41,636 nt of DNA from Verrucomicrobiota bacterium. Its GTDB lineage: Bacteria > Verrucomicrobiota > Verrucomicrobiia > Chthoniobacterales > UBA10450. Below, piece after piece: positions 2,390 to 33,372 of the stretch (positions are counted from its first letter, which is position 1; each line of letters opens with the position of its first letter). A program made the translations under genes and the position numbers. Location of the stretch: assembly GCA_003220155.1 (NCBI GenBank), contig QHRO01000246.1:1-41636 (forward strand), given 5' to 3'. The notes below the pieces were generated by a model that did no database searches, was not told the origin of the DNA, and was given only the letters and a program-made list of their open reading frames with translations.

Positions 2390-4186
2390 TTAACTGCCGC
2401 CGTCTTTCTTCCAAAGTCGGTCCCGCAATCCCGAACTCCGCTCTATTTTTCGTTCGATGGTTTGCCTCAATATATGCTCCGTGGCCCACACTTCCACTGT
2501 CTCACGCACCCTGGTTACTCCTGTATAAAGCAGCTCGCGCGTCAACACCGGCGCGTCTCTTTCCGGTAAAATGACTAGCGCATCACGAAACTCTGATCCC
2601 TGGCTTTTGTGCACCGTCAAAGCAAAAGCCGGTTGATGTGCCGGTAGACGCCCTGGCGCAAAATTGAGCACATCGCTGCCTTCGCCGCGAAAGAAAACCC
2701 GCAGCTCGCCACTGGTGGGGTCTGGCAGTACGATCCCGAGATCGCCGTTAAAAAGGCCGACATTGTAATCGTTTCGCACAATGATCACCGGCTCTCCCCC
2801 ATGATAACGCCCATCACCTTCGACTCTTCCGATGTCCCACAACATCCGCTCCAGCAACCCATTTACTGTTTCCGCGCCGAACGGTCCCCGACGCAACGCG
2901 CACAAGACTGCGAATTCCGCCAGTTGATTCAAGGCGTCCGCCGGATCGGTCAGCGTTAAGAACTTTTCGAATCGCGGCAAGACGCGCTCGCGCAGTTCTC
3001 GCTCAAATTTTTTTACCAACGGCGTTGGCCGCCAGCGAATTCGGCCACCGTTTTTCAAAACCGCGATTGCGCCTTCGGCATCGCCCTGATTGACAGCGCT
3101 GCTTAGTTCGGCAATTCCCCTTTCGGACGTAAAACGATAGTTGCGCCGTAATTCAACTACGACGGGATGAATCGGCGCTTCGCTCGCACTCGTGCCCTCC
3201 AATTCCTCGCCCGTGCATTTCGCGAAGGCCTCTGCCAACGAGGCAGAGATTCCGGGCTCTAGACCGGACGTGCAAATGTCGCGAAAGGCGCTTCCCGCTT
3301 CTACCGACGCGAGCTGGTCCTTGTCGCCAACCAGAATAACGCGCGCATCCGGCCGGACCGCATCGAACAGCTTCGCCAATAGCGCCAGGTCGATCATCGA
3401 TGCCTCGTCTACAATCACGACATCCGCCAGCAGCGGATTCTTGGCGTCGTGCCGAAAATGCGGCGAATCGCCTTTGGCGCCGAGTAACCGCTGGATGGTT
3501 GATGCATCCGCCGGAAGTTTTACCTCATCGGGCAGCCGCAGCGAGAACCGCGTTTGCGCGATTGTTTCCTTAAGTCGCGCCGCCGCTTTGCCGGTTGGAG
3601 CGGCGAGCGCGAAATTGAGCTCCCGTTTTCCGGCAAGCGCGATCAGGAGCGCGCAAATCAAGACAATAGTGCGCGTTTTTCCCGTGCCGGGCGCGCCCGA
3701 AATGACGCAGAGGTGCGAGGTTGCCGCGACGAATGCTGCGACTTTTTGCAAATCAGACTGCGCGGGAAACAGTTTCTCAAGATTTTTGGCCAGCTCTGTT
3801 CGGTTGAAGTCGCGCATCGGATTATCCCTCAGGCGCGCCTGAAGATTGCGTCCCAGGTCGTCCTCATATTTCCAGTAACGCTGAAGGTAAAGCCGGTCCG
3901 CCTTATCTAATATGAGCGGTGTGAATTCTCCCGGCCCGCCCACTACTCCTGAGGCGCGCAATTTTCTTACCCAATTTTTCAGCGGCGGAACATCCGGACC
4001 TCCGATTTTTGACGCATCGGTGGAAGTAATCGCTGGCAGCGCTACGCAAACATCTCCGCGCTCGCGAAAATTGCTGACCAGTTTGGCGGCCAACTCCAGT
4101 TCCGGCGATGAAACCTTTGCCAACCGGTTCATCAACGCGGCAAAATGCTGATCGATGAAGTGAACTTCGAGCTCAGGAGTTGCCAT
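2390..4186 (-). CDS. recD: Exodeoxyribonuclease V alpha subunit RecD
   Basis: Walker A ISGAPGTGKTRTIV, DEAS motif VVIVDEASMIDLALL, C-terminal ALTVHKSQGSEF and LLYTGVTRVRETVEVW. Start assigned to MATPELEVHF at 4186, 14-bp overlap with recB. Confidence 0.9.
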   Translation of the reverse strand: MATPELEVHFIDQHFAALMNRLAKVSSPELELAAKLVSNFRERGDVCVALPAITSTDASKIGGPDVPPLKNWVRKLRASGVVGGPGEFTPLILDKADRLYLQRYWKYEDDLGRNLQARLRDNPMRDFNRTELAKNLEKLFPAQSDLQKVAAFVAATSHLCVISGAPGTGKTRTIVLICALLIALAGKRELNFALAAPTGKAAARLKETIAQTRFSLRLPDEVKLPADASTIQRLLGAKGDSPHFRHDAKNPLLADVVIVDEASMIDLALLAKLFDAVRPDARVILVGDKDQLASVEAGSAFRDICTSGLEPGISASLAEAFAKCTGEELEGTSASEAPIHPVVVELRRNYRFTSERGIAELSSAVNQGDAEGAIAVLKNGGRIRWRPTPLVKKFERELRERVLPRFEKFLTLTDPADALNQLAEFAVLCALRRGPFGAETVNGLLERMLWDIGRVEGDGRYHGGEPVIIVRNDYNVGLFNGDLGIVLPDPTSGELRVFFRGEGSDVLNFAPGRLPAHQPAFALTVHKSQGSEFRDALVILPERDAPVLTRELLYTGVTRVRETVEVWATEHILRQTIERKIERSSGLRDRLWKKDGGS

Positions 4187-7100
4187 CAAAAACGTCATCC
4201 AGTTGTTCCACAAACTTGCGTGGCGGGCGCGTGAAAAATATCCCGTTGTCCAGTTTCCCAGGATCGATTCCGCGCAGAAAAATATAGAACGCTCCCCCGA
4301 AATTCCTCTCGTATTCGTAACTGGGGAGGCGCCGTTGTAAATAACGATGCAGCGCCACCGCATAAATGCTCAGCTGCAAATTGTAAAAATTCCGCGCCAT
4401 TTCCGTAGCAATATTCTCAGGCGCGTAACTGCCAGAGTCGGTCCCCAGCCAATTCGATTTCCAATCGACAAAATAGAAACGTCCCGCGTGCTCAAAAACC
4501 AAATCGATGAATCCTTTCATGAATCCGTTGGCTGGCGCGAACTGCAGGCGATCGATCGCGAGCGGCAACTCCTCCACCTGAAACGCCTTGCGCAGACGCG
4601 CGGTGGTCAATGCTGTAATCGGAAAAGTGAACTCCAGTTCCGACAAACGTGACGCGCGCGAGATTTGCGAAAGCATAAAGCCATCCTCGCCCAGCGGAAC
4701 CCGCAACGTCCTCGCCAAAATATCGCACACCACTTCAACAAAGGTGTCGAAATGAAAATCGCCCAGCTTTCTTGCCACCAGCGGCCGCAGTTGCGAAAGA
4801 TCGGCGAAATCGAGTTCCTCCAGAATTAAATGCAGGCAGGTCCCGGCTCGCATCCCGCCGGGAAAAGCGTGAATTCCCTGTGTCGGCAGGACGGGCTCTT
4901 CTACACTCTCGACCCCGGGTTCCATTCTATCGTAATCCGGTGTCTCCGGATCTTCCATTCGCCCGCTGATCAACGAACTGAAACTCGAGATTCGCCAGCT
5001 CCGATCGATCTCCTCATTGAAAACTCGCGGCGCCAGTGGTGTTGGTAACGCCGGTGTCGGTGCAAAAACATTTTCTCTGCCTTCGGGCAAATCTTCAACC
5101 GCGATTACGTCGCTTTCCCCAAATGCAGCCCGCACGCGTCCGCTCGTGTTCGACTCGCCTTTTTCCTCGAGAAATGCGTCGGCTGATTCTTCCTCCGAAA
5201 ACAGCCAGGCCAGCGCCGATTTGGATTTTCTACTACTTTCCTGCCAAATCAGATAGCTGCGATGTTTTGCCCGCGTAAGCCCGACATAGAGTTGCCGAAC
5301 AGACTCTGCCAGCTCTTCGCGATTCCGGATTCTTTTGTGCTCCGCCGATTCTTCCAGGTCGAGCACAATTTTGTCGTCTTCATGAAACTTCAAGAATTCC
5401 TTTGCCCCGCTCCATGGTTCCTTGCGCACAAACGGCGAAAACGTGACGCCGTACTCGAGCCCTTTGCTCTTGTGAATCGTGACAATCCGGACTGCGTCTT
5501 CGTCACTTTCCAAACGCAATTCATGTTCGTCTTTCAGTTCGCCGCCGAGCGAAATTTGCCGCGCCAGCCACTTGATCAGCCCATCAATGCCGAAGCGATT
5601 TTCCACACAAGCGGCATGCAACAGTTCGATCAAATGCAAAATGTTCGTCAGTCGACGTTCGCCGTCCCGCCAGTGGAGCAAACGCGATCGCACCTTCTCG
5701 CGAACGAGCAGCTCTCGCATCATTTGCACGAAACCCTGGTCCCGCCACCACATGTGGTAATCGGCAAAGCGATTAAGCGTCGCTTCCCACGCGGATTCGT
5801 CGTCCAATAAACTTTCCAGCGCGCTCGCATTTAAGCCGAACGTCTCTGTCGCCAGCGCGGCCCGAACAATTTTCTCGTGCGTCGGCTGCGCCACTGCCAG
5901 CAACACACGCAACAACTCCAAGGCCTCGCCGGATTTGAGAACGCTGGCCGCACTGTAAACGACCGATGGAATTCGATAATCCGCCAGCGCTCGCTGAACC
6001 CCGACTGGCTGTGTGTTATTATTCACCAGAACCGCGATGTCGCGCGGCTCAATTTTCCTTGTCCCGATCTTCGTTTCACTGGTCAGCAATGATGCAATTT
6101 CCGCGGCCACCACTTTTCCCATTCGCGCCCTGTCGCCAGAGGCCGCGATCCAGAAATGCAGCGGTTGAGCCCGCTGATCACCAATCGTAAGGGCCTCGGC
6201 ATCGGCTTTTCCCGATGCTGTCACTGGCGAAAGCTCGATGCTTTCAATGACAAAAGAATCGGTGCGCCGACTGAAAATCGCGCTCACTCCATTGACCAAC
6301 TTCGCCTCCGATCGCCAATTCTGCCCAAGGGTATGACGGCGGTTCGCAACTTTTGCCGCTTTTAAATAAGTGAAAACGTCGGCGCCGCGAAATCCATAAA
6401 TCGCCTGTTTGGGATCGCCGATAAAAAATACGGAGGCGTCGCTTCCCCGGTAAATTTGCGAGAAGATCGAATACTGCACCGGGTCGGTGTCTTGGAACTC
6501 GTCCACCAGCGCGACGGGGAAACGCTCGCGCAAACTCTTCCGCAGCTCGCTCCCTCGCTCGCCCCGCAGTGCTTCGTCCAGGCGGGTGAGCATGTCGTCA
6601 AACGACTGCACTTGGCGATCCGTCTTTCGCCGGCGCAATTCCGCGCGCGCCCATTCACAAAAGTTCGACTCGAGCGAAATAACGAAACGTTCTGCCAATG
6701 CTGTCAGTTCCTCGCCATCGCCTCCCGCCTGGCACAGTTCGGTAATTCTCCTTTCCAGAGCCACGCGATCTTCCGCGGGCGGCCAAACGCGCAGCGTTGG
6801 ATTGTTTGTCAGCTGCGTGAGTAACTCAACCAGATGCGCCGGCGTCAACCGCGCGCGCAACACCCCGGCCACAATGGTGTCGTCGTTGTAGAAATTTGCG
6901 CGCCAAAAATCGTCCACAACTTCATGCAAAAAGCGAGATTGATCCGCCACCAACTCGGTCTCGAAAGGCATACCGCTTTCAAACGCGCGATCGGCCAGAA
7001 CTCGCGCGCAAAAACTGTGGATGGTAAAAATTGAAGCTTCATCAAAACTCTGCAGCGCGAGTTTCAGTCTGAGCTCGAATTGCTTTCGGTCCGTGACTCT

Positions 7101-7361
7101 TTTGACGATCTCCGCAACGAAGGGCAGACGCGTCTGCGCCAGCGCGTCCGTGATTGTTTCCCGAATCCGACCACGCAGTTCCGCCGTCGCCAGCTCGGTG
7201 TAGGTAGTTACCAGAATTTGCTCGATCGGGATCCCCTGCTCTGCCAGCAAGCGCAAAACAATGGCGGAGATCGTCGTCGTCTTTCCCGTGCCCGCGCTCG
7301 CTTCGATAACGGTGAACCCTTTTTCCAGGGGACTTTGGGCGGCATTGAATTCGGGTTTCAT
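4173..7361 (-). CDS. recB: Exodeoxyribonuclease V beta subunit RecB (UvrD/REP helicase plus nuclease)
   Basis: EASAGTGKTTTISAIVLRLL, LVDEFQDTDPVQYSIF, GDPKQAIYGFRGADVFTY, VRIVTIHKSKGLEYGV, nuclease GFIDLVFEHAGRFYFVDWKSNWLG. Confidence 0.93.
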   Translation of the reverse strand: MKPEFNAAQSPLEKGFTVIEASAGTGKTTTISAIVLRLLAEQGIPIEQILVTTYTELATAELRGRIRETITDALAQTRLPFVAEIVKRVTDRKQFELRLKLALQSFDEASIFTIHSFCARVLADRAFESGMPFETELVADQSRFLHEVVDDFWRANFYNDDTIVAGVLRARLTPAHLVELLTQLTNNPTLRVWPPAEDRVALERRITELCQAGGDGEELTALAERFVISLESNFCEWARAELRRRKTDRQVQSFDDMLTRLDEALRGERGSELRKSLRERFPVALVDEFQDTDPVQYSIFSQIYRGSDASVFFIGDPKQAIYGFRGADVFTYLKAAKVANRRHTLGQNWRSEAKLVNGVSAIFSRRTDSFVIESIELSPVTASGKADAEALTIGDQRAQPLHFWIAASGDRARMGKVVAAEIASLLTSETKIGTRKIEPRDIAVLVNNNTQPVGVQRALADYRIPSVVYSAASVLKSGEALELLRVLLAVAQPTHEKIVRAALATETFGLNASALESLLDDESAWEATLNRFADYHMWWRDQGFVQMMRELLVREKVRSRLLHWRDGERRLTNILHLIELLHAACVENRFGIDGLIKWLARQISLGGELKDEHELRLESDEDAVRIVTIHKSKGLEYGVTFSPFVRKEPWSGAKEFLKFHEDDKIVLDLEESAEHKRIRNREELAESVRQLYVGLTRAKHRSYLIWQESSRKSKSALAWLFSEEESADAFLEEKGESNTSGRVRAAFGESDVIAVEDLPEGRENVFAPTPALPTPLAPRVFNEEIDRSWRISSFSSLISGRMEDPETPDYDRMEPGVESVEEPVLPTQGIHAFPGGMRAGTCLHLILEELDFADLSQLRPLVARKLGDFHFDTFVEVVCDILARTLRVPLGEDGFMLSQISRASRLSELEFTFPITALTTARLRKAFQVEELPLAIDRLQFAPANGFMKGFIDLVFEHAGRFYFVDWKSNWLGTDSGSYAPENIATEMARNFYNLQLSIYAVALHRYLQRRLPSYEYERNFGGAFYIFLRGIDPGKLDNGIFFTRPPRKFVEQLDDVFDGNS

Positions 7362-10300
7362 TGCCGTTTGCGCCTAGAGAAAATTGGCCCAAGAACACAA
7401 AGACTGATCCTTTCCCACTCTTCATCGAGCGCGTCGTCTCGATTGCGGAACGCCAACTTGATGTAGGCATCATCACGCTCGCCCCTGCTCTTTTCGTCGT
7501 TCTCGTTGCTCTTCCAATCGTTTCCCGCCAGGTAACGTGCGCGCTCCCGATCTTTCCCGGCAAAAATTTTTTCCACAAAAGTCCAAGAACTTCGTGGGAA
7601 TAATTGCAGCGGCTCGCACAGACCGCCCCAGTAGATTGTAAGCAAATCAGTCAGAACTTCGCGCGCGTTTTCCATCGGCGGAAATTCGTAGCCGGCGATC
7701 TCATCTCCTTCTTTTCCGAAAAGCAACGCCGGTTTCTGCTCGGTCAGGTTCCGCGCCAAGTGCTCGATCCAGATGCGCACGAAATCCTTCGTTTTTAATC
7801 TCGTTAGCCGGTAATGCAGCAGAGTGTCGCCACGGACACGATCGATTCGACCGCTCAAAGTAAAATCGCCAATGTCCGCACGAATAATCGTTGCCGGTTG
7901 CTGCACTGCCACCTGCTGACGAATGGTGTCGGCGAACGTCGTCACGTTCGTGCACAACTCATCAAAAATCACGTCGCCTGTTCCGCCCGGCGGTAAAACG
8001 CCCGAGGCCCGCACCGACGCAAGTGCGCTTTCCGGAACAACTCCGTTAAGCGCATCGTCCAGCAATTGCTGTTCAATGCCGTAGCGATCGAGCGAATCCA
8101 GCGCGAACGGTTCGCGATCGTCTGCTTCTTCGCGGTCGCGCGGCAGTTCGATTCCCAGTCGGTGCCGCACAAAAAATTTCGCGGGATGGGAAAAAAATTC
8201 CACCAGCCGCGCAATTTCCACCTCGTACCATTTCTCATCCGGCTCGCTCAGGGGTTGATCGAAAAACGGCAGTGGCTCGCGACGATCCTTTTCCAAGACA
8301 ATTCCCGCCGCGCAGTTGTCCGCCGAGTAACTGAACAAGCGGCCGTTATTTTGAAAATTGCGTGGGCTGAAGGCTTGCAGCGGATGTTTGATTACGAACT
8401 GGTCGATCGCTACGTGAAAATTTTCCGCAATGTAATCGAGCAGTTCGCTCGCCAATACGCTCGGCGGAAGGGGCTGGTTGTCGCGCAGTGATTGTCCGAT
8501 GTAACTGAGATAAAAAACTTCGCGCGCCGAAAGAAGCGCTTCCAAAAAAAGCGCGCGATCGCCGTCGCGAATGTTTCGGTCTCCGCGTTTAGGGTATTGC
8601 GCCAGCAGATCAAAACCCGGGGCGCGATCGTGCCGCGGAAATGCGGTATCGTTTAGCCCGAGTAGACATACGACTTTGGACGGAACGCTGCGCATCGGCT
8701 TGAGCGCGCAAAAGGTCAGGTTCCCAGAAAGAAAACCAGCGCCGCTGCTCGATTCTTCGAGAGAATATTCCAGTTGCGCCACCACGACATCGAGCGGCAC
8801 CGCGCATTCATTTTGCGCGGCAGCGCCGATTTCACCGAGGGCGGCGATGGCAGCGCGGAGTCGATTTAATTCGCGTTGCGCCGCCTCGTCCGCGGCGAAA
8901 AACGCATCGAGTGTTTCGCGCAAATCGCGTTGCCACTCCGAGAGCGGGCGCGGTTTGCTAAATTCATTCGCACGCGAAAAAAGCCGCTCCACAAATTCGA
9001 GGAAGTTTCCGAGGAGTTCCGTATTCGAACCTTCGATTTCATCGAAGGGCAAAATTTCCTTGAACAATTGGCGGTTCTTCGGCCGCAGCGCCGACCCCAG
9101 CAGCATTCGGTCAAGACCGTGCCGCCAACTGTTTTCTGCAAAGGCGGGCAAGCCTAGCCGCCCCCGATGTTGCGCGTCGATTCCCCAACGGATCGCACAC
9201 TCGTCCACCCAGCGCTGAATTATTTCGATCTCTGCTGGCGCAATTCCAAAACAGCGCTGCACTGCCGGTGCTTCCAGAATCGCAAAAACTTCGCTTGCCG
9301 TGAAGCGTCCCGGCAAAATTTCCAAGATGCGAAAAAATGTGTCGATGACTCCGCTGCCGGCGCGTGCTTCCCGGTCAGCAGTCGAGTACGGAATTTTCTG
9401 CTTCGGGTTCTCCGGCACGCCAAACACTGCATCGATGAAGGGCGCATAAACAGACACGTCCGGCATCATCACGATGATGTCTTTCGGCTTCAGCGCAGAA
9501 TCCTCCTGAAAGAGATCGAGCAGGTGATCGTGCAAAACCTCGAGCTCGCGCACGATGCTGTGGCAGGAATGAATTTGCAGGGAGCGATCGCTGGGCGCGA
9601 CGGATCGCTTTACTTTGGCCGGGCCAGATTTCAGTTCGAAGATGTCGCTTTGAATTTCCAGCAACACCGGCACCGCTCCGGATTCCGTCTTCGCCGGCGA
9701 AATGAAATCTTCATGCTCCGCCACCGGCGTGAGCTCAGCGATGAGATTCAAGAAGTCGCGACCGACTTTTCCGTTCGCGCCTAACAACTCGTTATCGCCT
9801 GCTTCGTCCTCGTCAAATCCGAACAACTCTGGTTGTTTCGCTCGTGCTTTTTCCCGTTTCGAACGAATATCGCCCCACCAAAGCGGCGTCGGTTCCATCA
9901 CAAAATGATGGACCGGACAGCGCGCGGAAATCTCGCTGATGAGCGAGATGTAAAACGGCGGCAGGGTCGAGACCCCGAAGATCGAGACGCGCTCCGGGAC
10001 CGGCGCGCGGTTACGCTTGAGTGCATCGATCAATTGCGATCCGAGCGCGGCCTGGTGCCGGCTGGGAGCGGCTCGCTGCAATTCGCGCCAGAGCATCGGC
10101 TGCCAATCCTTCCCCTCGCCCGTGTCCCAATCCAAAATCATTTTCGGGCGAAAGACGACGTATTGGTCGAAAACGTGAGCGATTCTTCGGGCTAGCTCAT
10201 AGGCGCGCAATTCAGTGCGTTCGCCGCGGAGGTAATTGGCGACCGCAGCGAACTCCGGATGAGTAACAAGGCGCGGCAGATCTTTCATGATCCGCCACGT

Positions 10301-10594
10301 CATCACCTCCTGATCGAAAAGATTCGTCGCTTCGGATTGAGGGAAAGCGCTCTGCAAAAGATCGTGAAAGAATTTTTGTGGAAACGGAAACTGCACGTTC
10401 GAGCAAATGCCGTGGCGGTCTGCGATCTGTTGTTCGAGCCAGCGGCGCATGCCGTTGCTTTGCACGACGATAATTTCCGGCAGGAGAGGCGAGCGAAGTG
10501 GATCGGCGATGAGCTTGGACAGCTGGTCGGCCAGCCGCTCGAAACGGTTGCTGGTATGCAGAGTAAGTCCGGAACGGGACGTTGAGGACATCAT
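7358..10594 (-). CDS. recC: Exodeoxyribonuclease V gamma subunit RecC
   Basis: 1078 aa. N-terminus LTLHTSNRFERLADQLSKLI...EIIVVQSNGMRRWLEQQIA is typical of RecC. Order recC-recB-recD with ATGA overlap to recB. Confidence 0.92.
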   Translation of the reverse strand: MMSSTSRSGLTLHTSNRFERLADQLSKLIADPLRSPLLPEIIVVQSNGMRRWLEQQIADRHGICSNVQFPFPQKFFHDLLQSAFPQSEATNLFDQEVMTWRIMKDLPRLVTHPEFAAVANYLRGERTELRAYELARRIAHVFDQYVVFRPKMILDWDTGEGKDWQPMLWRELQRAAPSRHQAALGSQLIDALKRNRAPVPERVSIFGVSTLPPFYISLISEISARCPVHHFVMEPTPLWWGDIRSKREKARAKQPELFGFDEDEAGDNELLGANGKVGRDFLNLIAELTPVAEHEDFISPAKTESGAVPVLLEIQSDIFELKSGPAKVKRSVAPSDRSLQIHSCHSIVRELEVLHDHLLDLFQEDSALKPKDIIVMMPDVSVYAPFIDAVFGVPENPKQKIPYSTADREARAGSGVIDTFFRILEILPGRFTASEVFAILEAPAVQRCFGIAPAEIEIIQRWVDECAIRWGIDAQHRGRLGLPAFAENSWRHGLDRMLLGSALRPKNRQLFKEILPFDEIEGSNTELLGNFLEFVERLFSRANEFSKPRPLSEWQRDLRETLDAFFAADEAAQRELNRLRAAIAALGEIGAAAQNECAVPLDVVVAQLEYSLEESSSGAGFLSGNLTFCALKPMRSVPSKVVCLLGLNDTAFPRHDRAPGFDLLAQYPKRGDRNIRDGDRALFLEALLSAREVFYLSYIGQSLRDNQPLPPSVLASELLDYIAENFHVAIDQFVIKHPLQAFSPRNFQNNGRLFSYSADNCAAGIVLEKDRREPLPFFDQPLSEPDEKWYEVEIARLVEFFSHPAKFFVRHRLGIELPRDREEADDREPFALDSLDRYGIEQQLLDDALNGVVPESALASVRASGVLPPGGTGDVIFDELCTNVTTFADTIRQQVAVQQPATIIRADIGDFTLSGRIDRVRGDTLLHYRLTRLKTKDFVRIWIEHLARNLTEQKPALLFGKEGDEIAGYEFPPMENAREVLTDLLTIYWGGLCEPLQLFPRSSWTFVEKIFAGKDRERARYLAGNDWKSNENDEKSRGERDDAYIKLAFRNRDDALDEEWERISLCVLGPIFSRRKRQ

Positions 10595-17083: not shown

Positions 17084-17749
17084 CTACTTGCCCAGCGGTG
17101 TGGAAATCTCGGTGCCAGGTGGAGGCGTGAACTCAAACTGGCTGGCCGGGATTGCAGCATGGTTCGGGTTCTGGTAGGTCGTCACAATCTGGTCGCCGTT
17201 TGGCTGGAGCATGTCCGTGCGCTCGGCAAAGAGATCGTCGCTCAAGTGCAACAACAACTTTTGGAAAATACGTTTCATCGATGGATTGCGCGGCGTCAGC
17301 TCGAGGTCGTAACCCTTTTCCCCTTTGGCGGCGATAATGTGAAAGGTGTGTTCGACATTCTCCAAGTTAAGCGCGGTCGTGATTGCGGAAATCGCGGCAT
17401 CAAGCGGCGAGCGTTTGGCCAATGAATAATGCTCGGCTGATTTGAAGTTTGGGTAATAAATCCAAAGCTGTTGCCCGTCACTCACGGTAATGCTTGGGGC
17501 GTTGCCCTTGCGTTCGACGCGGAATTTGTTTGGGGCTTGAAACCAAATTTTTCCGCTGCTGTTAATCGGCTCGTCCAACAAGTGAACCTTTCGTTGTTCC
17601 TGGAAATCGGCCTGCATACTTGGAGCTGCGGCGCGCTTCTCGCGAATACGTTCGAGCAAGCTCTTGATGTCAGCAGGCGATAGCGGCTCGGCTTTCACGC
17701 CAATGACGAACGACGCCACCAGAAAAATGACGGTAATTATTTTACGCAT
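17084..17749 (-). CDS. Outer-membrane lipoprotein carrier LolA-like protein
   Basis: Signal peptide MRKIITVIFLVASFVIGVKA; APSMQADFQEQRKVHLLDEPINSSGKIWFQAPNKFRVE, a LolA-type core. Confidence 0.8.
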   Translation of the reverse strand: MRKIITVIFLVASFVIGVKAEPLSPADIKSLLERIREKRAAAPSMQADFQEQRKVHLLDEPINSSGKIWFQAPNKFRVERKGNAPSITVSDGQQLWIYYPNFKSAEHYSLAKRSPLDAAISAITTALNLENVEHTFHIIAAKGEKGYDLELTPRNPSMKRIFQKLLLHLSDDLFAERTDMLQPNGDQIVTTYQNPNHAAIPASQFEFTPPPGTEISTPLGK

Positions 17750-20267
17750 GTTCCAGTTCCGCTTCAGTGAAATGTTCCCGCGGCAGCTTCGGTTTAACTG
17801 CAACTGCCGCCGGCAAAGTGAAGAAGATGGTCGCGGCCAGGCTCCAGAACAAGCCGATGGCGCAGGCAATCCCCAGCCCGCTCAAGGTCGGATTATGCGC
17901 CCAGCCGAGCGAACCGAATCCGGCGATGGCGGTCAATCCCGCGAGCACGACTGGTTTAACTACACCGGTAAGATCGCGCGCGACATCGTGGCTTCGCTGC
18001 CAAACTAACAAGACGTAGATTCCATAATCAACCCCGATAGCAAGAACGAGGCGGAAGGCGAGCACATTTAATAAATTCAGCGGCACGCTGAGCAGTTTCA
18101 TCGAAGCGATCATGGCCGCGACCGCAAGCGCAAGCGTTATCACTTGCACGAGCCAGAGACGCAAGTCACGATAAAGAATCGCCAGAAGCGAGGCATCGAA
18201 TATCGCCATCAACGCACTGATCAGGAGCAACTGCCGATGCGACCACGGCACCAGATCGGTCAAGGTATAACTCCAGCCCGAGAGAGTGATTGGGATTCCT
18301 GTAACTGGCAGTTCGCGCGCGAGTACGTTCTTTTGTTCCTGCGTCGCCACCGGGGCGTTGGTGGTGACGAAGCCGGTTGTGGTCAGTGAATCCTGCGCGA
18401 AATAGCGTTCGACCAAAAACCACCAGGCTGAGCCCGGCGGCAATTGCGTGCGCCAGGACGGGATTTTGTAATCAGGGGCAGCCGCCGCTTGGAGCTGGTT
18501 GAGTAACTCGAAGGCGGAAGCGAAGGCGTCGGGGTTAAATCGATTTTGAGTAAGCGCGTTCTGCAAGGCGGTTCGGGCCGCGTCAAAGTTAATCGAAGCC
18601 AGCTTTCGCCGATTGTGTTGCATTTCGCGCGGTGAAAGGGCGAGCGCGTTGGGAATGGAGAAGCTCTTAATTTTGCCGGCGCGTTGCAGCTCGGCCCAGT
18701 GCTGCGCAATCGCATTCCAGAAATCGTGCAACTGTTGTTCGGTTGAGGCACGGACGATTCCAAGGACTGGTTCCCAGCGCACCGGCATTTTCTGCATGAT
18801 CAAACTGAGCGCGGTGCCGGCGCGACTGTTCTTCGGCTCCAGCGATCGCGCGTTTGCCTCAAAGGTGAGCGGAATTTGCGGAGCGATCGCAATAATCAGC
18901 AGCGCGATCAGAATGGGAGCGCTAATTGCGAGAATGGACCGCGGGCGGCTCTGCATGCGACGCACATAATTTCTCACTGCCCCTAAAATCCAATCGCTGC
19001 GCAACGGAACATTTCCTCGCGGCACGAACAGAAAAAAAACCGTCGTCATTAATAGGCCGGCAGCGGAAATTCCGATGGCGATAAGGACGCCGAGCTGAAT
19101 AAATCCCGAAGAGTTGCTTAGGACGAGGGCTAGGAAACCGATTGCGGTGGTTAAGGCGCCGAAGAAAACGGCGCGGCCAAGACTGTGAATGGCGTCGGCA
19201 ACGGCGACGCGATGTCCGTCGCCTTCGTTTCGCGCTTGCTGATAGCGGCCGTAAATCAGAATGGCGAAATCAACGCCGAGCCCAACCAGAATCGCGCAAA
19301 AGCCGACCGTCACCATGTTGAGGCGGTGAAAAATCAAGAGGCCAGCGGCGAGTCCAATCAGACAACAAAGCAGAAGGGCGAAGCCCATTCCAAGCAACGG
19401 GAGCCACCGCCGAAATCCGATAAAAAAAACGGCACCGACCAGCGCGATTGAACTCAACACCGTGGCAACGATGTCATGGCGCATGCTCAGCGAAATTTCC
19501 GCCACATAAGCGGAACGCCCAGTGATGAATACTTCAAGTTTGCCGCCATCCCAGCCTTCCAGCGCGGGTGTGCGAAATGCATTCACCTGCTTCATTAGTT
19601 TCTGGCAATCAAACGCGCTGATACTTGGCTGATTCGTGACCATCGGAAAAACGCGCATGGTGGAATCGGGCGAAGTCAGGGGCTGATCTGTTTCCATCGC
19701 GGCGTTGCCGGCAAACGGCTTGAGCGACGGCGTGATTAGGCCGAGTGGATCGAGCGTCAGCTCTATTTCCGGCCGCGGCGAACCGCTTTCGATTTCCCGA
19801 CGCAATTGCGCGAGGCGTTCCTGAATTTTCTGGGGTTGAAGCAAAGAAATCGCGCGATCAAAATCCTCCGGCTCGAGATTGAGCAGAAGCGGGAGGGCGA
19901 TTCGTTGCAGATCGCGCACTCCATCCGGCGTTTCCATGGGCGAACCCGCCAGCACGCGAACGCACCATGGTTGCGCGCGCAGTCTCTCGACGAATTTCGG
20001 CGCGAATTCTTCCAGCTTATCCACGTCCTCGGGCTGACAAAGAAGGGCGAAGGTCAGTTCGCGCGTCTGCGCAAACTCACTGTTGTAGGTCTTCAGGCCT
20101 TCGACCGAATCAAATCCCTGCGGTAACAAATTGAGGACTTCGGTATCGAGCCGTAAAAACGCCATCAGAATGCCGACACTGATGAGCGCGATCAGTAAGA
20201 CCACGCTCCACATCAGGCCACGGCGTTCCGTAACAAGAAAGGCAACCTTTTCGCTGAATCGCATCAC
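17742..20267 (-). CDS. MMPL/RND-superfamily exporter
   Basis: 841 aa, two repeated TM blocks: VGLGVDFAILIYGRYQQARNEG and LAIGVDYGIYVLLVWQRSHD (GVDY/F motifs). Overlaps the lolA-like start. Confidence 0.88.
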   Translation of the reverse strand: MMRFSEKVAFLVTERRGLMWSVVLLIALISVGILMAFLRLDTEVLNLLPQGFDSVEGLKTYNSEFAQTRELTFALLCQPEDVDKLEEFAPKFVERLRAQPWCVRVLAGSPMETPDGVRDLQRIALPLLLNLEPEDFDRAISLLQPQKIQERLAQLRREIESGSPRPEIELTLDPLGLITPSLKPFAGNAAMETDQPLTSPDSTMRVFPMVTNQPSISAFDCQKLMKQVNAFRTPALEGWDGGKLEVFITGRSAYVAEISLSMRHDIVATVLSSIALVGAVFFIGFRRWLPLLGMGFALLLCCLIGLAAGLLIFHRLNMVTVGFCAILVGLGVDFAILIYGRYQQARNEGDGHRVAVADAIHSLGRAVFFGALTTAIGFLALVLSNSSGFIQLGVLIAIGISAAGLLMTTVFFLFVPRGNVPLRSDWILGAVRNYVRRMQSRPRSILAISAPILIALLIIAIAPQIPLTFEANARSLEPKNSRAGTALSLIMQKMPVRWEPVLGIVRASTEQQLHDFWNAIAQHWAELQRAGKIKSFSIPNALALSPREMQHNRRKLASINFDAARTALQNALTQNRFNPDAFASAFELLNQLQAAAAPDYKIPSWRTQLPPGSAWWFLVERYFAQDSLTTTGFVTTNAPVATQEQKNVLARELPVTGIPITLSGWSYTLTDLVPWSHRQLLLISALMAIFDASLLAILYRDLRLWLVQVITLALAVAAMIASMKLLSVPLNLLNVLAFRLVLAIGVDYGIYVLLVWQRSHDVARDLTGVVKPVVLAGLTAIAGFGSLGWAHNPTLSGLGIACAIGLFWSLAATIFFTLPAAVAVKPKLPREHFTEAELEHA

Positions 20268-20279
20268 AGAAAAGCCGGC

Positions 20280-20687
20280 CTAGAAGCGGAGCACGAAAGT
20301 CTCCGATCCTTCACTCACCTGCACAATTCGCTTTTGCGGATTGCGCAGAATTTCCTGGCGCAAGGCGAGCCAACCGCTGGCCCGCGCCGGCGGCTGCTGA
20401 AGCGGCCCTGACCAGGGAATGCGTGCGAGCGGGCCTTGCACGCGAGCGAAAGCGGGATCTGTACGCATTACTAACAAAGTGACGCCCGGGCCCTTGCTGA
20501 AAGTCAATTCGAAATCGCCGCGATTGGAGTAGCGCACGAATACCTCGCCAATGAGCGATGTTTTTTTGCCGTGATAAGAAAGCTGGCCGTTGCGAGCAGT
20601 CCATGTCCGGCTCGGCGGCGCGAATTGATGGATGGCGCAGCTGCTCAGAATTAGGGCGACAGCCAGGGTCGACGCAATTCGCCCCAT
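20280..20687 (-). CDS. Small outer-membrane-type lipoprotein (possible DUF3261-like), function unknown
   Basis: Signal peptide with lipobox MGRIASTLAVALILSSC; start overlaps the upstream flavoprotein stop; genetic linkage to MMPL/LolA. Confidence 0.6.
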   Translation of the reverse strand: MGRIASTLAVALILSSCAIHQFAPPSRTWTARNGQLSYHGKKTSLIGEVFVRYSNRGDFELTFSKGPGVTLLVMRTDPAFARVQGPLARIPWSGPLQQPPARASGWLALRQEILRNPQKRIVQVSEGSETFVLRF

Positions 20688-20688
20688 A

Positions 20689-22014
20689 CTATATAGAGGC
20701 GGGCTTGAGTGGCTCTGTTTGGCCGTTCGTTTTGGGCACAAGCGAAAGTCGCGGGCAAAGGGTCCAACGTTTTTGCAAACGCACGATCAGATAAAAAAGT
20801 TCCATTCGCCAGCGGATGGCAAAGCGGTTGCCAACGTTACCGCCGAGCACGGCATTCACCGCCGGTGGAATCTGCAGAAGCTCGGTCGGCGTTAAAAAAA
20901 CTTCGATGAATTCCTTGCCGGCATACCACGATTCAACGAAGCGCAGATAAACGTCCATGGCGCGATTGATCAGCCGTTCGTAATGCCGGAACAGACGCCG
21001 GGCGCGTTTTGGGTGATCGAGCACCTCGTGCAAAACATCGGCCGCCTGTTCACCAGCGAGGACAGCGAGAAAAACGCCGCTGCTGAAAACGGGATCGATG
21101 AAACCGGCGGCATCACCGGCAAGCAACCAGCGATCTCCAGTGAGTCTCTCACTCCGATAGGAAAAATCCGCTGCGGTATAGACCTGTGAAACGCGTCGGC
21201 CCGCGCCGATGCGATTGCGCACGAGCGGCTGCTCCGCAATAGCGCGCTCGAAAAATTCTTCGGCGGAAAGTCCAGAGCTTTTGAAGTCCGCCGCCTCCAA
21301 TACAACGCCGATACTGGTGCGGTCATTCTCCAGCGGGATAATCCAGAACCAGCTTTGCAAGGTACGAACCATGCGGGTGAGCGTGCCATCGATTCCCTCC
21401 TCGCGCTCCAACCCTTCGTAGTGCGCAAAGAGCGAAAGTTTCTGCAAATGCTGATAACTCTTCTTCAGCTTGAATTTATTTCCGATCACGGAATTCCGCC
21501 CGCTCGCGTCGATAACATAGAGCGCACGAATATTTTCGGAGGGACGTGCTTCTGCACGTCCGAGGACGCGCAGAACCGCGTCCCTCCGCAGGAAAAGCGT
21601 CGCGCCATCTTGATCAAAATCGACGTTCTCGACCATGGTCTCCTCGCGAACTTCCGCACCCAATTCCGCCGCGTGATCTAACAGCATCTTGTCGAATTTC
21701 GACCGTGTCACCTGATACGAACGATCGGTGCGGGAGCCAAATCCATCCTTGAAGTAAAACTTCGCTGCTTTTTCGCCACCGGCTTCCGCAATCTCGCCTC
21801 CAAATTTTTCGACAAAACCGGCACGCAATTTTTCCTGAATCCCCAGCCGGGTGAATGTTTCCATGCTAAAAGGCAGAAGCGACTCGCCGATGTGGAAACG
21901 CGGAAACTTGTCTCGTTCGAGCACGATCACGCGTCGCCCTGCTTTGCTGAGCAAGGTCGCCGCGGTGCTGCCGGCGGGGCCGCCGCCGATGATCGCAACA
22001 TCATAATTTTCCAC
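20689..22014 (-). CDS. FAD-dependent oxidoreductase of the flavin-halogenase / geranylgeranyl-reductase-like superfamily
   Basis: VENYDVAIIGGGPAGSTAATLLSKAGRRVIVLERDKFPRFHIGESLLP; WFWIIP (WxWxIP signature); DRWLLAGDAAGFIDPVFSSGVFLA. Probable GTG start at 22014; residues further upstream fall in a repeat. Confidence 0.82.
   Translation of the reverse strand: MENYDVAIIGGGPAGSTAATLLSKAGRRVIVLERDKFPRFHIGESLLPFSMETFTRLGIQEKLRAGFVEKFGGEIAEAGGEKAAKFYFKDGFGSRTDRSYQVTRSKFDKMLLDHAAELGAEVREETMVENVDFDQDGATLFLRRDAVLRVLGRAEARPSENIRALYVIDASGRNSVIGNKFKLKKSYQHLQKLSLFAHYEGLEREEGIDGTLTRMVRTLQSWFWIIPLENDRTSIGVVLEAADFKSSGLSAEEFFERAIAEQPLVRNRIGAGRRVSQVYTAADFSYRSERLTGDRWLLAGDAAGFIDPVFSSGVFLAVLAGEQAADVLHEVLDHPKRARRLFRHYERLINRAMDVYLRFVESWYAGKEFIEVFLTPTELLQIPPAVNAVLGGNVGNRFAIRWRMELFYLIVRLQKRWTLCPRLSLVPKTNGQTEPLKPASI
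21538..21587. repeat. Palindromic repeat element inside the flavoprotein CDS
   Basis: GGAGGGACG...CGTCCCTCC outer arms enclosing two hairpins: GGACGTGC-ttct-GCACGTCC and GGACGCG-cagaac-CGCGTCC. Confidence 0.75.
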
Positions 22015-22048
22015 CGCGAGAAAGTAGCCGACTTCGGGGGGAAGCAAA

Positions 22049-22198
22049 GGGTAGCGCACGCAACCCCAGTCCGACTCGGACCTCGCGTATTGGCGGAGGC
22101 GTCTCGCCTTCGCGGACATTTCTGCAAAGATTGTTTGGGCGAGACGCCGAAAGTCCAGGCCGGACTGGCGTTAGCACGCCGGAGGGCGCGCGCTACCC
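22049..22198. repeat. About 150-bp nested inverted-repeat element
   Basis: GGGTAGCGCACGC (22049-22061) / GCGCGCTACCC (22188-22198); CCAGTCCG (22066-22073) / CGGACTGG (22161-22168); GGCGTCTCGCC (22098-22108) / GGCGAGACGCC (22138-22148). Confidence 0.75.
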
Positions 22199-23449: not shown

Positions 23450-23553
23450 CCTCGAAGATTTTTTCTCTGCTTGAAACAACCAAATGGCGTGGCCATTTCG
23501 ATTGTGGTAACTAGGCGAGGCCGCTCGTGGCCACGGCTAGTTTTCCCGGAGTT

Positions 23554-23931
23554 ATGACCTTGCAGATACTGGTGGTCGAGGATCACGGCGATACTCGCCG
23601 CGTCTTGACCGGCTTGCTCGGGCATTTCGGTCATTCCATTTCCGCAGCGGACAATGTGGAAAGCGCGCTTGCATTTCTGAGAGCGAAACACTTCGACGCG
23701 ATTGTGAGTGACCTGGCTTTGCCGGATGGCAGCGGATGCGAGGTGATTCGTGAAGCAAAACGCCGGCAGAATCTCACCGGCGTGGCACTGACCGCGGATG
23801 GCGAACAAGACGATATCAGGCGCGGACGCGACGCCGGCTTCGATTATCATCTGACCAAGCCGATAGATTTCGCGCAGTTACGCAACGTGCTTGAGCAGAT
23901 CGCGCCGGCTCATAATGACGGGCTCGTCTGA
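23554..23931 (+). CDS. Stand-alone response-regulator receiver (REC) protein
   Basis: LQILVVEDHGDTRRVL, DAIVSDLALPDGSG, YHLTKPIDFAQL. ORF extends to 23527 with a GTG start. Confidence 0.88.
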   Translation: MTLQILVVEDHGDTRRVLTGLLGHFGHSISAADNVESALAFLRAKHFDAIVSDLALPDGSGCEVIREAKRRQNLTGVALTADGEQDDIRRGRDAGFDYHLTKPIDFAQLRNVLEQIAPAHNDGLV

Positions 23932-27489: not shown

Positions 27490-27672
27490 ATGCAGTTAGT
27501 AGTGCCAGCTGATATTGCCTGTCCCCATTGCGGGGAAACTTTCGCATTGGAGGTGGATACTTCGCAGAACGAACAAGACTCGATCGAAGACTGCAGCATT
27601 TGCTGCCGCCCCATCGCTTTGACCATCCGGTGCCGACCAGGCGAAATCGTCGAAATCAGCGTCGCAAATTAG
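27490..27672 (+). CDS. CPXCG-motif cysteine-rich small protein
   Basis: MQLVVPADIACPHCGETFALEVDTSQNEQDSIEDCSICCRPIALTIRC. Confidence 0.85.
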   Translation: MQLVVPADIACPHCGETFALEVDTSQNEQDSIEDCSICCRPIALTIRCRPGEIVEISVAN

Positions 27673-29654
27673 GTAGTCGTTGCGCGGCGCCGCGCGATCT
27701 CGCGCAACGTCGCCTGCAATCGATCGACGTTAACCGGCTTGATCAAGTGATCGGTGAATCCGACCGCGCGACTTTTCTCCATGTCGTCTTCCATTCCAAA
27801 TCCACTGAGGGCAATGCCAGCAATTGATTGTCGCGCACGAATCTGGCGCATCAAATCGTGGCCACTGCCGTCGGGTAAACCGATGTCGCTCACGAGCAAA
27901 TCAAATCTCGATTCTTTCGAGAGTTGTAGCGCTTGTTTGACCGTTTCGGCGCAGGCCACGTCGTAGCCGAGGTTCCGTAAAAGTGCTCCCAGGATGATAA
28001 CCGTGTCGGTATGATCATCGACCAGAAGAATGCGCAGCGGCCGCGGTTTTTGCGCTTCACTAGTTGAGCTCGCAGCGGTGGAGTCGCGCTTGGCTTTCGG
28101 CTCGTCCGTGCTACTCCGCACCGCGATGGTGGCAAGCGAAATCGTTACCACCGTTCCGCGATTCCGGCCTGGACTGCTCGCCTCCATCTGTCCGTGATGG
28201 GCTTCGACAATGGCATGGGAAATAGCGAGCCCGAGCCCGAGCCCACCATGACCGGCTTGGACGCGACGCACTCCTTGCTCGAAGGAATCGAAAATTCGTG
28301 GCAACACTTTCGGTTCAATCCCGATTCCGTTGTCGCTCACGCGCACCAGGACTTTTCCGGCATCGTTGGTCGACTCGATGTGAATCACGCCGCCGTCCGG
28401 CGTAAATTTGATTGCATTCTTAATCACGTTCCAAAAGACCTGCATCAGCCGCGAATCATCGGCCTGGGCAAAATGTTGTGGCGCGGCTAAATTTGTGTGG
28501 ACGCGCAGTTTCTTGTGCGCGATCTCCGTTTTAAAAATCTCCAGCGCGCCCCGCACCGTGGCGTGAATATCGACGGTGCCGACATCGAGGTTGATTTTTC
28601 CTTTGGCGATGGCGGTAAGGTCAAGAATGTCATCGATTAAACGCGCCTCGAGCTCGATGTTACGGCGAATAATTTCGATTGTGCCTTTGAATTCCCCATT
28701 AACGTTGATCTTCTGTTCGAGCAATTCCACACCGGCAAGGACGGGTGTAAGCGGAGTCCGCAACTCATGGCCGAGCACGGCAAGAAATCTGTCCTTCGCG
28801 CGGTTCGCGGCCTCGGCTTCTGCTCGGGCTTCCCGTTCCCGCAGCAGATTTCGCTGCTGTTCTTCGGCCGGTCTATGCGCGGTGACATCATGAAAGACGG
28901 CCACCGCGCCATGAATGGTGCCGTGCTCATCGCGCAACGCCCGCGCTGTTACATCCGCCCACGAGCCATCAACATTACCGCCGTGCTGGATAAAAATTTC
29001 CTTGTCATCAACATGTCCCCCTGCGACGGCGCGCGAAGTTGGCGATTCCGCTGGCGCAATCCGCGTCACTTTATCGGTGCGAAAGAATCCGCAATCCTGC
29101 GAACAGTTTTTGGGAACGTCTTCGTCCTCTTTTAATCCAAGCATCCGGCGCAAGGCCGGGTTAGAAAGCAACGCGGCGCCGTCCCGATCAACCACCAGCA
29201 GTCCGTCACCCATACTGGTGACGATCAGACTTAAAAGCTTGGTCTGCTCGATCAGCGCTTCGTTGGCTGCGCGCAGGACCGCAGGCCCCGGAATATTTAC
29301 CACCTGTGGGATAAGGCGGATAAGAAGAATCGCGGTTGGAACAGAGGCAAGCGCGGTGATTGCTTTCACGATTCCGGAAACCCAATAATAAGGTTTCCAA
29401 AGTGTGATGATCTCCATCACGTGCGTCATACCGCAGGCGATAATAAAAATGCCGAAGCAGACGAACATCCAGTTGAAGGGCAGGTCGCGACGCTTACGAA
29501 CAGAATTAACAAGCGTAAACGGGATGATGAAGTAAGCGGCCGCGATCAGAAAATCCGAGATCAGATGCAGCCGCATCAGGCCAGGATCCCACAAGTAGCA
29601 GTGGCCATGCGGCATGAAACCGTTCTGGCCAAGGAGAACCCTGAAAAAGTCCAT
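27669..29654 (-). CDS. Hybrid sensor histidine kinase: ethylene-receptor-like 3-TM domain, PAS, HisKA, HATPase, REC
   Basis: N-terminal ISDFLIAAAYFIIP...FIIACGMTH; GHELRTPLTPVLAGVELL (H box); DNGIGIEPKVLPRIFDSFEQG, GGLGLGLAISHAIVEAHHG; C-terminal REC LLVSDIGLPDGSG...LIKPV. Confidence 0.92.
   Translation of the reverse strand: MDFFRVLLGQNGFMPHGHCYLWDPGLMRLHLISDFLIAAAYFIIPFTLVNSVRKRRDLPFNWMFVCFGIFIIACGMTHVMEIITLWKPYYWVSGIVKAITALASVPTAILLIRLIPQVVNIPGPAVLRAANEALIEQTKLLSLIVTSMGDGLLVVDRDGAALLSNPALRRMLGLKEDEDVPKNCSQDCGFFRTDKVTRIAPAESPTSRAVAGGHVDDKEIFIQHGGNVDGSWADVTARALRDEHGTIHGAVAVFHDVTAHRPAEEQQRNLLREREARAEAEAANRAKDRFLAVLGHELRTPLTPVLAGVELLEQKINVNGEFKGTIEIIRRNIELEARLIDDILDLTAIAKGKINLDVGTVDIHATVRGALEIFKTEIAHKKLRVHTNLAAPQHFAQADDSRLMQVFWNVIKNAIKFTPDGGVIHIESTNDAGKVLVRVSDNGIGIEPKVLPRIFDSFEQGVRRVQAGHGGLGLGLAISHAIVEAHHGQMEASSPGRNRGTVVTISLATIAVRSSTDEPKAKRDSTAASSTSEAQKPRPLRILLVDDHTDTVIILGALLRNLGYDVACAETVKQALQLSKESRFDLLVSDIGLPDGSGHDLMRQIRARQSIAGIALSGFGMEDDMEKSRAVGFTDHLIKPVNVDRLQATLREIARRRATTT
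29310..29582 (-). other. Putative copper/ethylene-binding-like transmembrane domain of the hybrid kinase
   Basis: Residues D34, Y41, P45, C74, H78 match the order and exact spacing of D25, Y32, P36, C65, H69 in Arabidopsis ETR1 (from recalled ETR1 sequence). Confidence 0.75.
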
Positions 29655-32225: not shown

Positions 32226-32541
32226 ATCGGCGCTGCAATCTGAGTCCGAAGTAGACACTGATCGCACGTAATTGGCCCGGATCATTGGTTTTCGTCCGCG
32301 GCATTTTTGCCAGCAATCTATCTACTTATGGAAGCGTAGACCTCGCAATGCGAGTCGCGCAAACTTTCTTCCGGGAGCGCGGGCCCCGTGTGCTGGCGGT
32401 TGCGCCCTCGCAATCGGACTCTCCATCAGTAACGAAGATTCCTACGATACTGCGGCAATCGGTCGTCGAGCGCAACAATATCCGCGTCTGCATCTGCGCT
32501 GATCCACGCATTCACGCTTTCAGCTTCGAAATAAATTGCGT

Positions 32542-33372
32542 ATGCGAGCAATCTGGAAAGGCAGCATCAGCTTCGGATTAGTCAACATTCCCATCGCCCT
32601 CTATCCCGCGACCCGCAGAGAAGAACTAAAGTTTCGGCTCTTGCGCGCGAAGGATTTGAGCCCGGTCAATTATAAGCGCGTAGCAGAGAAGGACGGCAAG
32701 GAAGTACCGTGGGATGAGATCGTCAAAGGCTACGAATATGAAAAAGGTAAATACATTGTCCTGAAGGATGAAGATTTTCAGCGCGTCGATCTCGAAGCAA
32801 CTCAGACCGTGGACATCCAGGACTTTGTCGATCAGGAAGAAATCGACCCGATGTTCTTCTACAAACCTTATTATTTAGAGCCACAAAAAGGCGGCGACAA
32901 AGCCTATGTCTTGTTGCGCGACACTCTCGCGAAGACCGGCAAGGTCGGGATCGCGAAGGTGGTGATTAAGACCCGGCAATATTTGGCTGGGGTGAAAGCG
33001 GAAGACAGTGTGCTCGTTCTGGAACTGATGCATTTCGCCGAGGAACTGGCGGATGCAGACAAGCTCCATGTTCCGAAAAAGATCGAGCCGGGAAAACGCG
33101 AGCTCAATATGGCAAAAGCCCTTGTTGACAGCATGTCGTCGAAATGGGACCCGAAAAAATATCGCGATGATTACCGCGAGGCCTTGATGGAGGTAATCGA
33201 GGAAAAAGTTGAAGCGGACGGGAAAGAAATCGAAGAAAAACCGAAACCGAAACCGCGACCATCTACCAAAGTGATCGAGCTCGTCTCGGTCTTGCAGGAA
33301 AGCGTGAACAAGACGCGAAAAGCTCATCACACACGCAAGAATTCAGCCGCACGTCACAGGAAGGCGGCGTAA
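32542..33372 (+). CDS. ku: Non-homologous end-joining protein Ku
   Basis: MRAIWKGSISFGLVNIPIALYPATR, PVNYKRVAEKDGKEVPWDEIVKGYEYEKGKYIVLKDEDF, EKPLI-equivalent region and lysine-rich tail. Confidence 0.93.
   Translation: MRAIWKGSISFGLVNIPIALYPATRREELKFRLLRAKDLSPVNYKRVAEKDGKEVPWDEIVKGYEYEKGKYIVLKDEDFQRVDLEATQTVDIQDFVDQEEIDPMFFYKPYYLEPQKGGDKAYVLLRDTLAKTGKVGIAKVVIKTRQYLAGVKAEDSVLVLELMHFAEELADADKLHVPKKIEPGKRELNMAKALVDSMSSKWDPKKYRDDYREALMEVIEEKVEADGKEIEEKPKPKPRPSTKVIELVSVLQESVNKTRKAHHTRKNSAARHRKAA

Follow-up and report, generated by a model that had tools for sequence, protein, structure and literature searches.

An intact ETR1-type hybrid histidine kinase, probably an ethylene receptor, in a soil Verrucomicrobiota bacterium

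The kinase gene and its surroundings

The stretch of Verrucomicrobiota DNA analysed here (the window, 41,636 nucleotides) carries on its minus strand, at 27669..29654, a complete open reading frame encoding a hybrid histidine kinase of 661 residues with an ethylene-receptor-type membrane domain at its N-terminus. Length and start of the protein are the same in relatives from the genus. An earlier, sequence-only reading had given these coordinates and had proposed that an ethylene-receptor-like domain is followed by PAS, HisKA, HATPase and receiver domains in that order. This order is borne out by comparison with Pfam, in which the sensor matches ETR1_N (PF25487; residues 26-120; 29295..29579, minus strand; E=2.5e-39) and all four signalling domains are found: PAS (PAS_4; residues 146-261; 28872..29219, minus strand; E=6.3e-9), the HisKA dimerisation and phospho-acceptor domain with His296 in the motif HELRTP (residues 286-349; 28608..28799, minus strand; E=2.4e-12), the HATPase_c catalytic domain (residues 399-507; 28134..28460, minus strand; E=1.5e-25) and a C-terminal receiver with the phospho-acceptor D590 in SDIGLPDG, which begins at residue 589 (residues 542-650; 27705..28031, minus strand; E=2.2e-21). 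With His296, the N and G boxes, the catalytic domain and D590 in place, the protein has the features of a hybrid histidine kinase.

The ETR1_N match scores 133.9 bits against a Pfam cut-off of 27 and covers positions 2-96 of the 97 in the profile. Scored with a profile of 61 relatives, from which the window protein and its four nearest rows had been left out, the sensor reaches 202 bits, whereas the best of 2000 shuffled versions of its first 139 residues reaches 10.5. Since the sensor exceeds the cut-off and the shuffled sequences by such distances, the match is not due to chance. On the window kinase, no match attains the cut-off of any of the 25 NCBIfam families listed.

Upstream of the kinase gene lie divergent genes for an L,D-transpeptidase and IspH, and downstream lies a convergent CNNM/CorC gene. 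No gene for a cognate regulator adjoins the kinase gene, which stands alone. The locus is syntenic in four relatives whose kinases are 69-96% identical to that of the window; the arrangement is kept in AV26, AV114 and AV12, and in CP_BM_ER_R8_19 on the upstream side. We considered reading the output of the kinase from conserved neighbours and dropped this approach, since synteny is confined to close relatives and was found in none of the distant Verrucomicrobiota loci tested. About 3.7 kb from the kinase gene, a single-domain response regulator of 134 residues is encoded on the plus strand (23527-23931; Response_reg, E=3.1e-21), and AV26 and AV114 show a receiver-like match at the equivalent location. 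Any link between the kinase and this receiver is speculation. Elsewhere in the genome there are two HPt matches, so phosphorelay partners do exist in this organism.

Other parts of the window hold genes of a different kind. Consecutive RecD-like, UvrD/RecB-like and RecC-like genes at 2390-10594 on the minus strand form a RecBCD-type set, and a gene for Ku is found at 32536-33372. A further row of genes on the minus strand, at 17084-22119, consists of LolA-like, MMPL exporter and FAD-dependent halogenase/monooxygenase-like genes and recalls a portion of an aryl polyene or flexirubin-type cluster.

Binding-site residues and predicted structure of the sensor

In 2006, Wang and colleagues reportedly singled out seven residues of ETR1, namely D25, Y32, I35, P36, I62, C65 and H69. 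The window protein has the identical residue at all seven equivalent positions (D34, Y41, I44, P45, I71, C74 and H78), and K97 aligns with ETR1 K91. The ETR1 sequence in this alignment is a presumed reference, in which D25, C65, H69 and K91 carry the numbers given in the literature. Measured against the same sequence, the spacing proposed earlier (40 residues from D to C and 4 from C to H) is that of D25, C65 and H69. The sequence-only reading had named D34, Y41, P45, C74 and H78, and had also pointed to T47; translation places all of these where it had put them, while I44 and I71 of the seven, and K97, had been overlooked. The codons from C74 to H78, the putative Cu(I) ligands, span 29421..29435 on the minus strand. 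Ethylene binding by ETR1 requires seven residues (PMC6682694; PMC11819568). Of the set given above, PMC6586836 names I35, P36, I62, C65 and H69, and PMC11819568 deals with D25, C65 and H69 as well as with K91.

Among 108 intact prokaryotic domains, the equivalent of D25 is kept in 107, Y32 in 108, I35 in 108, P36 in 104, I62 in 106, C65 in 108 and H69 in 107, a count that is partly circular since most of these domains were found with a pattern containing the C and the H. In the 27 verrucomicrobial relatives that were found by profile alone, the corresponding numbers are 26 (D), 27 (Y), 27 (I35), 23 (P), 25 (I62), 27 (C) and 26 (H). The position of ETR1 E38, which is T47 in the window, had been taken earlier as a sign that binding affinity may differ. 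We dropped T47 as a mark of altered binding: Thr is the prokaryotic norm at this position (70 of the 108 domains), Glu is found in none, and AzoEtr1 of Azospirillum brasilense binds ethylene with Ala there. Thus, T47 gives no reason to expect an altered affinity.

AlphaFold2, run on 150 residues as a monomer with a 66-row alignment, predicts three long helices ahead of the signalling domains, where they are expected for the ETR1 type (mean pLDDT 81.5, pTM 0.60). Predicted transmembrane helix 1 (residues 24-54; 29493..29585, minus strand) holds D34, Y41, I44 and P45, helix 2 (residues 61-86; 29397..29474, minus strand) holds I71 and the Cu(I) ligand positions C74 and H78, and helix 3 (residues 90-119; 29298..29387, minus strand) holds K97; a linker helix (residues 124-149) follows the three-helix domain. 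The earlier reading had expected D34, Y41, C74 and H78 on one face of the bundle. On a 100-degree helical wheel, D34, Y41 and P45 fall within 40 degrees and I71, C74 and H78 within 60 degrees of one another, so that, by helical periodicity, each set shares a face, in partial agreement with this expectation. No solved ETR1-type structure was found in the PDB by sequence, nor by fold at E<=0.001. Taken together, the Pfam match, the ETR1 alignment, the identity to AzoEtr1 and the predicted helices uphold the family assignment and the residue logic put forward earlier.

Ahead of the PF25487 profile, and outside its span, lies a conserved stretch, MPHGHCYLW, within the motif FMPHGHCYLW (residues 13-22; 29589..29618, minus strand). 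The motif lies near the position of the N-terminal disulfide cysteines of the plant receptors. Cys19 is kept in 25 and Trp22 in 24 of the 27 verrucomicrobial relatives found by profile, and both hardly vary even where the two His of the motif do, which suggests that Cys19 may have a dimer-linking or copper-handling role.

Comparison with known ethylene receptors

The sensor of AzoEtr1 is 41% identical to that of the window over 133 residues without a gap, and both proteins combine an N-terminal ETR1-type three-helix domain that has all seven residues with a PAS domain and a histidine kinase. However, AzoEtr1 lacks a fused receiver and has its response regulator encoded next door, whereas the window kinase has a receiver of its own and shares no operon with a regulator gene. 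We located the AzoEtr1 gene in A. brasilense Sp7 (L142:2968-4545); it encodes 525 residues, as published, and a response-regulator open reading frame overlaps it downstream. Residues 1-130 of AzoEtr1 bind 14C-ethylene with high affinity, and its D35A and C75A variants fail to restore biofilm formation (PMC11819568, PLoS Genet 2025). SynEtr1 (slr1212) of Synechocystis PCC 6803 binds ethylene and, by its published description, resembles the window kinase in having an ethylene-binding ETR1-type domain followed by a histidine kinase (PMC6682694), but it has a cyanobacteriochrome light-sensing domain where the window protein has PAS and receiver domains. Arabidopsis ETR1 has the same order as the window kinase, from sensor through linker domain, HisKA and HATPase to receiver. 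Where the window kinase has PAS, Thr and the one conserved Cys19, however, ETR1 has GAF, Glu38 and two N-terminal disulfide cysteines, and its loop between helices 2 and 3 is three residues longer.

The sequence-only reading had left it open whether such kinases are already catalogued. They are: Pfam holds them as PF25487, and papers describe cyanobacterial and proteobacterial members. Judged from its sequence, the window kinase is an ordinary, intact member of a known bacterial ethylene-receptor family. In the openly licensed literature we found neither verrucomicrobial or acidobacterial ethylene receptors, which is weak evidence of absence, nor binding data for any verrucomicrobial member.

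Distribution of the sensor domain

At least 581 relatives are present in a public genome set, and the 80 retained belong to Cyanobacteria, Proteobacteria, Acidobacteria, Myxococcota, Eremiobacterota, Bdellovibrionota and Verrucomicrobiota. Closest among named genomes are three metagenome bins of soil Verrucomicrobia, AV26, AV12 and AV114 (91-95% identity), and the cultured Chthoniobacter flavus Ellin428 has an intact homologue that is 55% identical in the sensor domain. The occurrence of ETR1_N is patchy: among 11 genomes of the genus it was found in 7 (in one of the seven as a fragment only), among 83 of the family in 13 and among 390 drawn from the phylum in 24. The building blocks of the window protein are common, since a scan of 33 ETR1_N proteins showed HATPase_c in 32, PAS in at least 23 and a receiver in 15.

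The sensor tree, which is built on few columns and leaves its deep forks without resolution, supports a group of the genus (99) and a cyanobacterial group (97) and offers little else of use. The window sensor branches with the intact group. A recent acquisition from cyanobacteria was considered and set aside, as the genus forms its own group outside the supported cyanobacterial one in this tree of weakly resolved deep forks.

A divergent paralogue that lacks the ATPase

The weaker profile matches in the family of the window organism belong to a distinct, divergent ETR1_N paralogue, encoded outside the window (loci L017, L018, L013, L016, L123, L014 and L012; also L126-L132), which is more unusual than the intact kinase. 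Its order is an extra N-terminal hydrophobic helix, ETR1_N, HisKA with its His and a receiver with its Asp, and HATPase_c is absent. The equivalents of D25, Y32, I35, I62 and H69 are changed in all seven copies, while that of C65 is kept in four; AlphaFold2 models the paralogue with modest confidence (pLDDT 69.5). The paralogue was found in one family (f1) only, in 7 of 214 genomes of the order (G007, G016, G020, G023, G033, G452 and G005), with one whole and one truncated copy in G016 and, in G005, an incomplete one where a contig ends. The copy in G020 (L014) is highly divergent, and its grouping with the other paralogues is uncertain. Neighbouring genes vary from genome to genome; in G016, at L137:752-5966, one copy lies near a gene with a start like that of a CusB-type heavy-metal efflux adaptor, which was not seen at the other loci. 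The intact receptor and the paralogue occur together in G007 and probably, as judged from a fragment, in G005. No copy was found in the window's own genome, which is 96.7% complete.

Discussion

The domain order, the conserved residues, the predicted three-helix domain and the family membership lead us to regard the window kinase of this soil Verrucomicrobiota bacterium as probably an ethylene receptor in the membrane, akin to ETR1, SynEtr1 and AzoEtr1. By analogy with the studied receptors, we infer that the sensor dimerises and binds Cu(I) and ethylene. Cu(I) would be held by C74 and H78 within the three transmembrane helices, at an interface of helices, likely a dimeric one, that D34, Y41, I44, P45 and I71 shape, and ethylene would bind to the Cu(I). 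The signal would then travel along the helix that follows residue 120 and by way of the PAS domain into the HisKA/HATPase core, where altered phosphorylation of H296 would change transfer to D590 of the fused receiver, and the phosphate on D590 might pass on to a phosphotransfer protein or regulator encoded away from the kinase gene. The sense in which the kinase responds and the pathway of its output are conjectural parts of this scheme.

It is conceivable, though unlikely, that the domain binds Cu(I) and that the signal is not ethylene but copper availability, redox state, another olefin, CO or a similar molecule. Identical ligand residues would serve such a sensor equally, no ethylene data were found for the phylum, and the domain is present in many bacteria without a known tie to plants. 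However, the window protein retains all of the ethylene-binding residues, beyond the metal ligands alone, and both bacterial members examined in the cited papers, SynEtr1 and AzoEtr1, bind ethylene (PMC6682694; PMC11819568). Far less probable still is a degenerate member that has kept the fold and lost ligand binding, so that the domain would do no more than anchor a PAS-kinase in the membrane and help it to dimerise. While such forms do exist in the same taxonomic family, they have lost the equivalents of D25, Y32, I62 and H69, whereas the window protein and its closest full-length relatives keep them all, and the window protein groups with the intact branch of the tree.

A wider scenario, which we consider rather doubtful, is that uncultured soil Verrucomicrobiota related to the window organism use this kinase to sense soil or plant ethylene and that, in part of the family, the receptor is paired with the ligand-blind, ATPase-less paralogue, which might act through mixed dimers or as a phosphate drain. 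If this were true, receptor and paralogue would constitute an ethylene-receptor regulatory pair of which we have encountered no description.

For the window kinase itself, the preferred reading as an ethylene receptor carries an already described type of sensor into a soil lineage that is uncultured and does not add a new kind of system. It supports the view that histidine kinases perceive ethylene well outside the cyanobacteria and the proteobacteria associated with plants, in soil Verrucomicrobiota too. Since the cultured C. flavus Ellin428 carries an intact homologue, the idea is open to test in a laboratory isolate. If ethylene binding holds true, ethylene from plants and soil could be a cue for soil Verrucomicrobiota.
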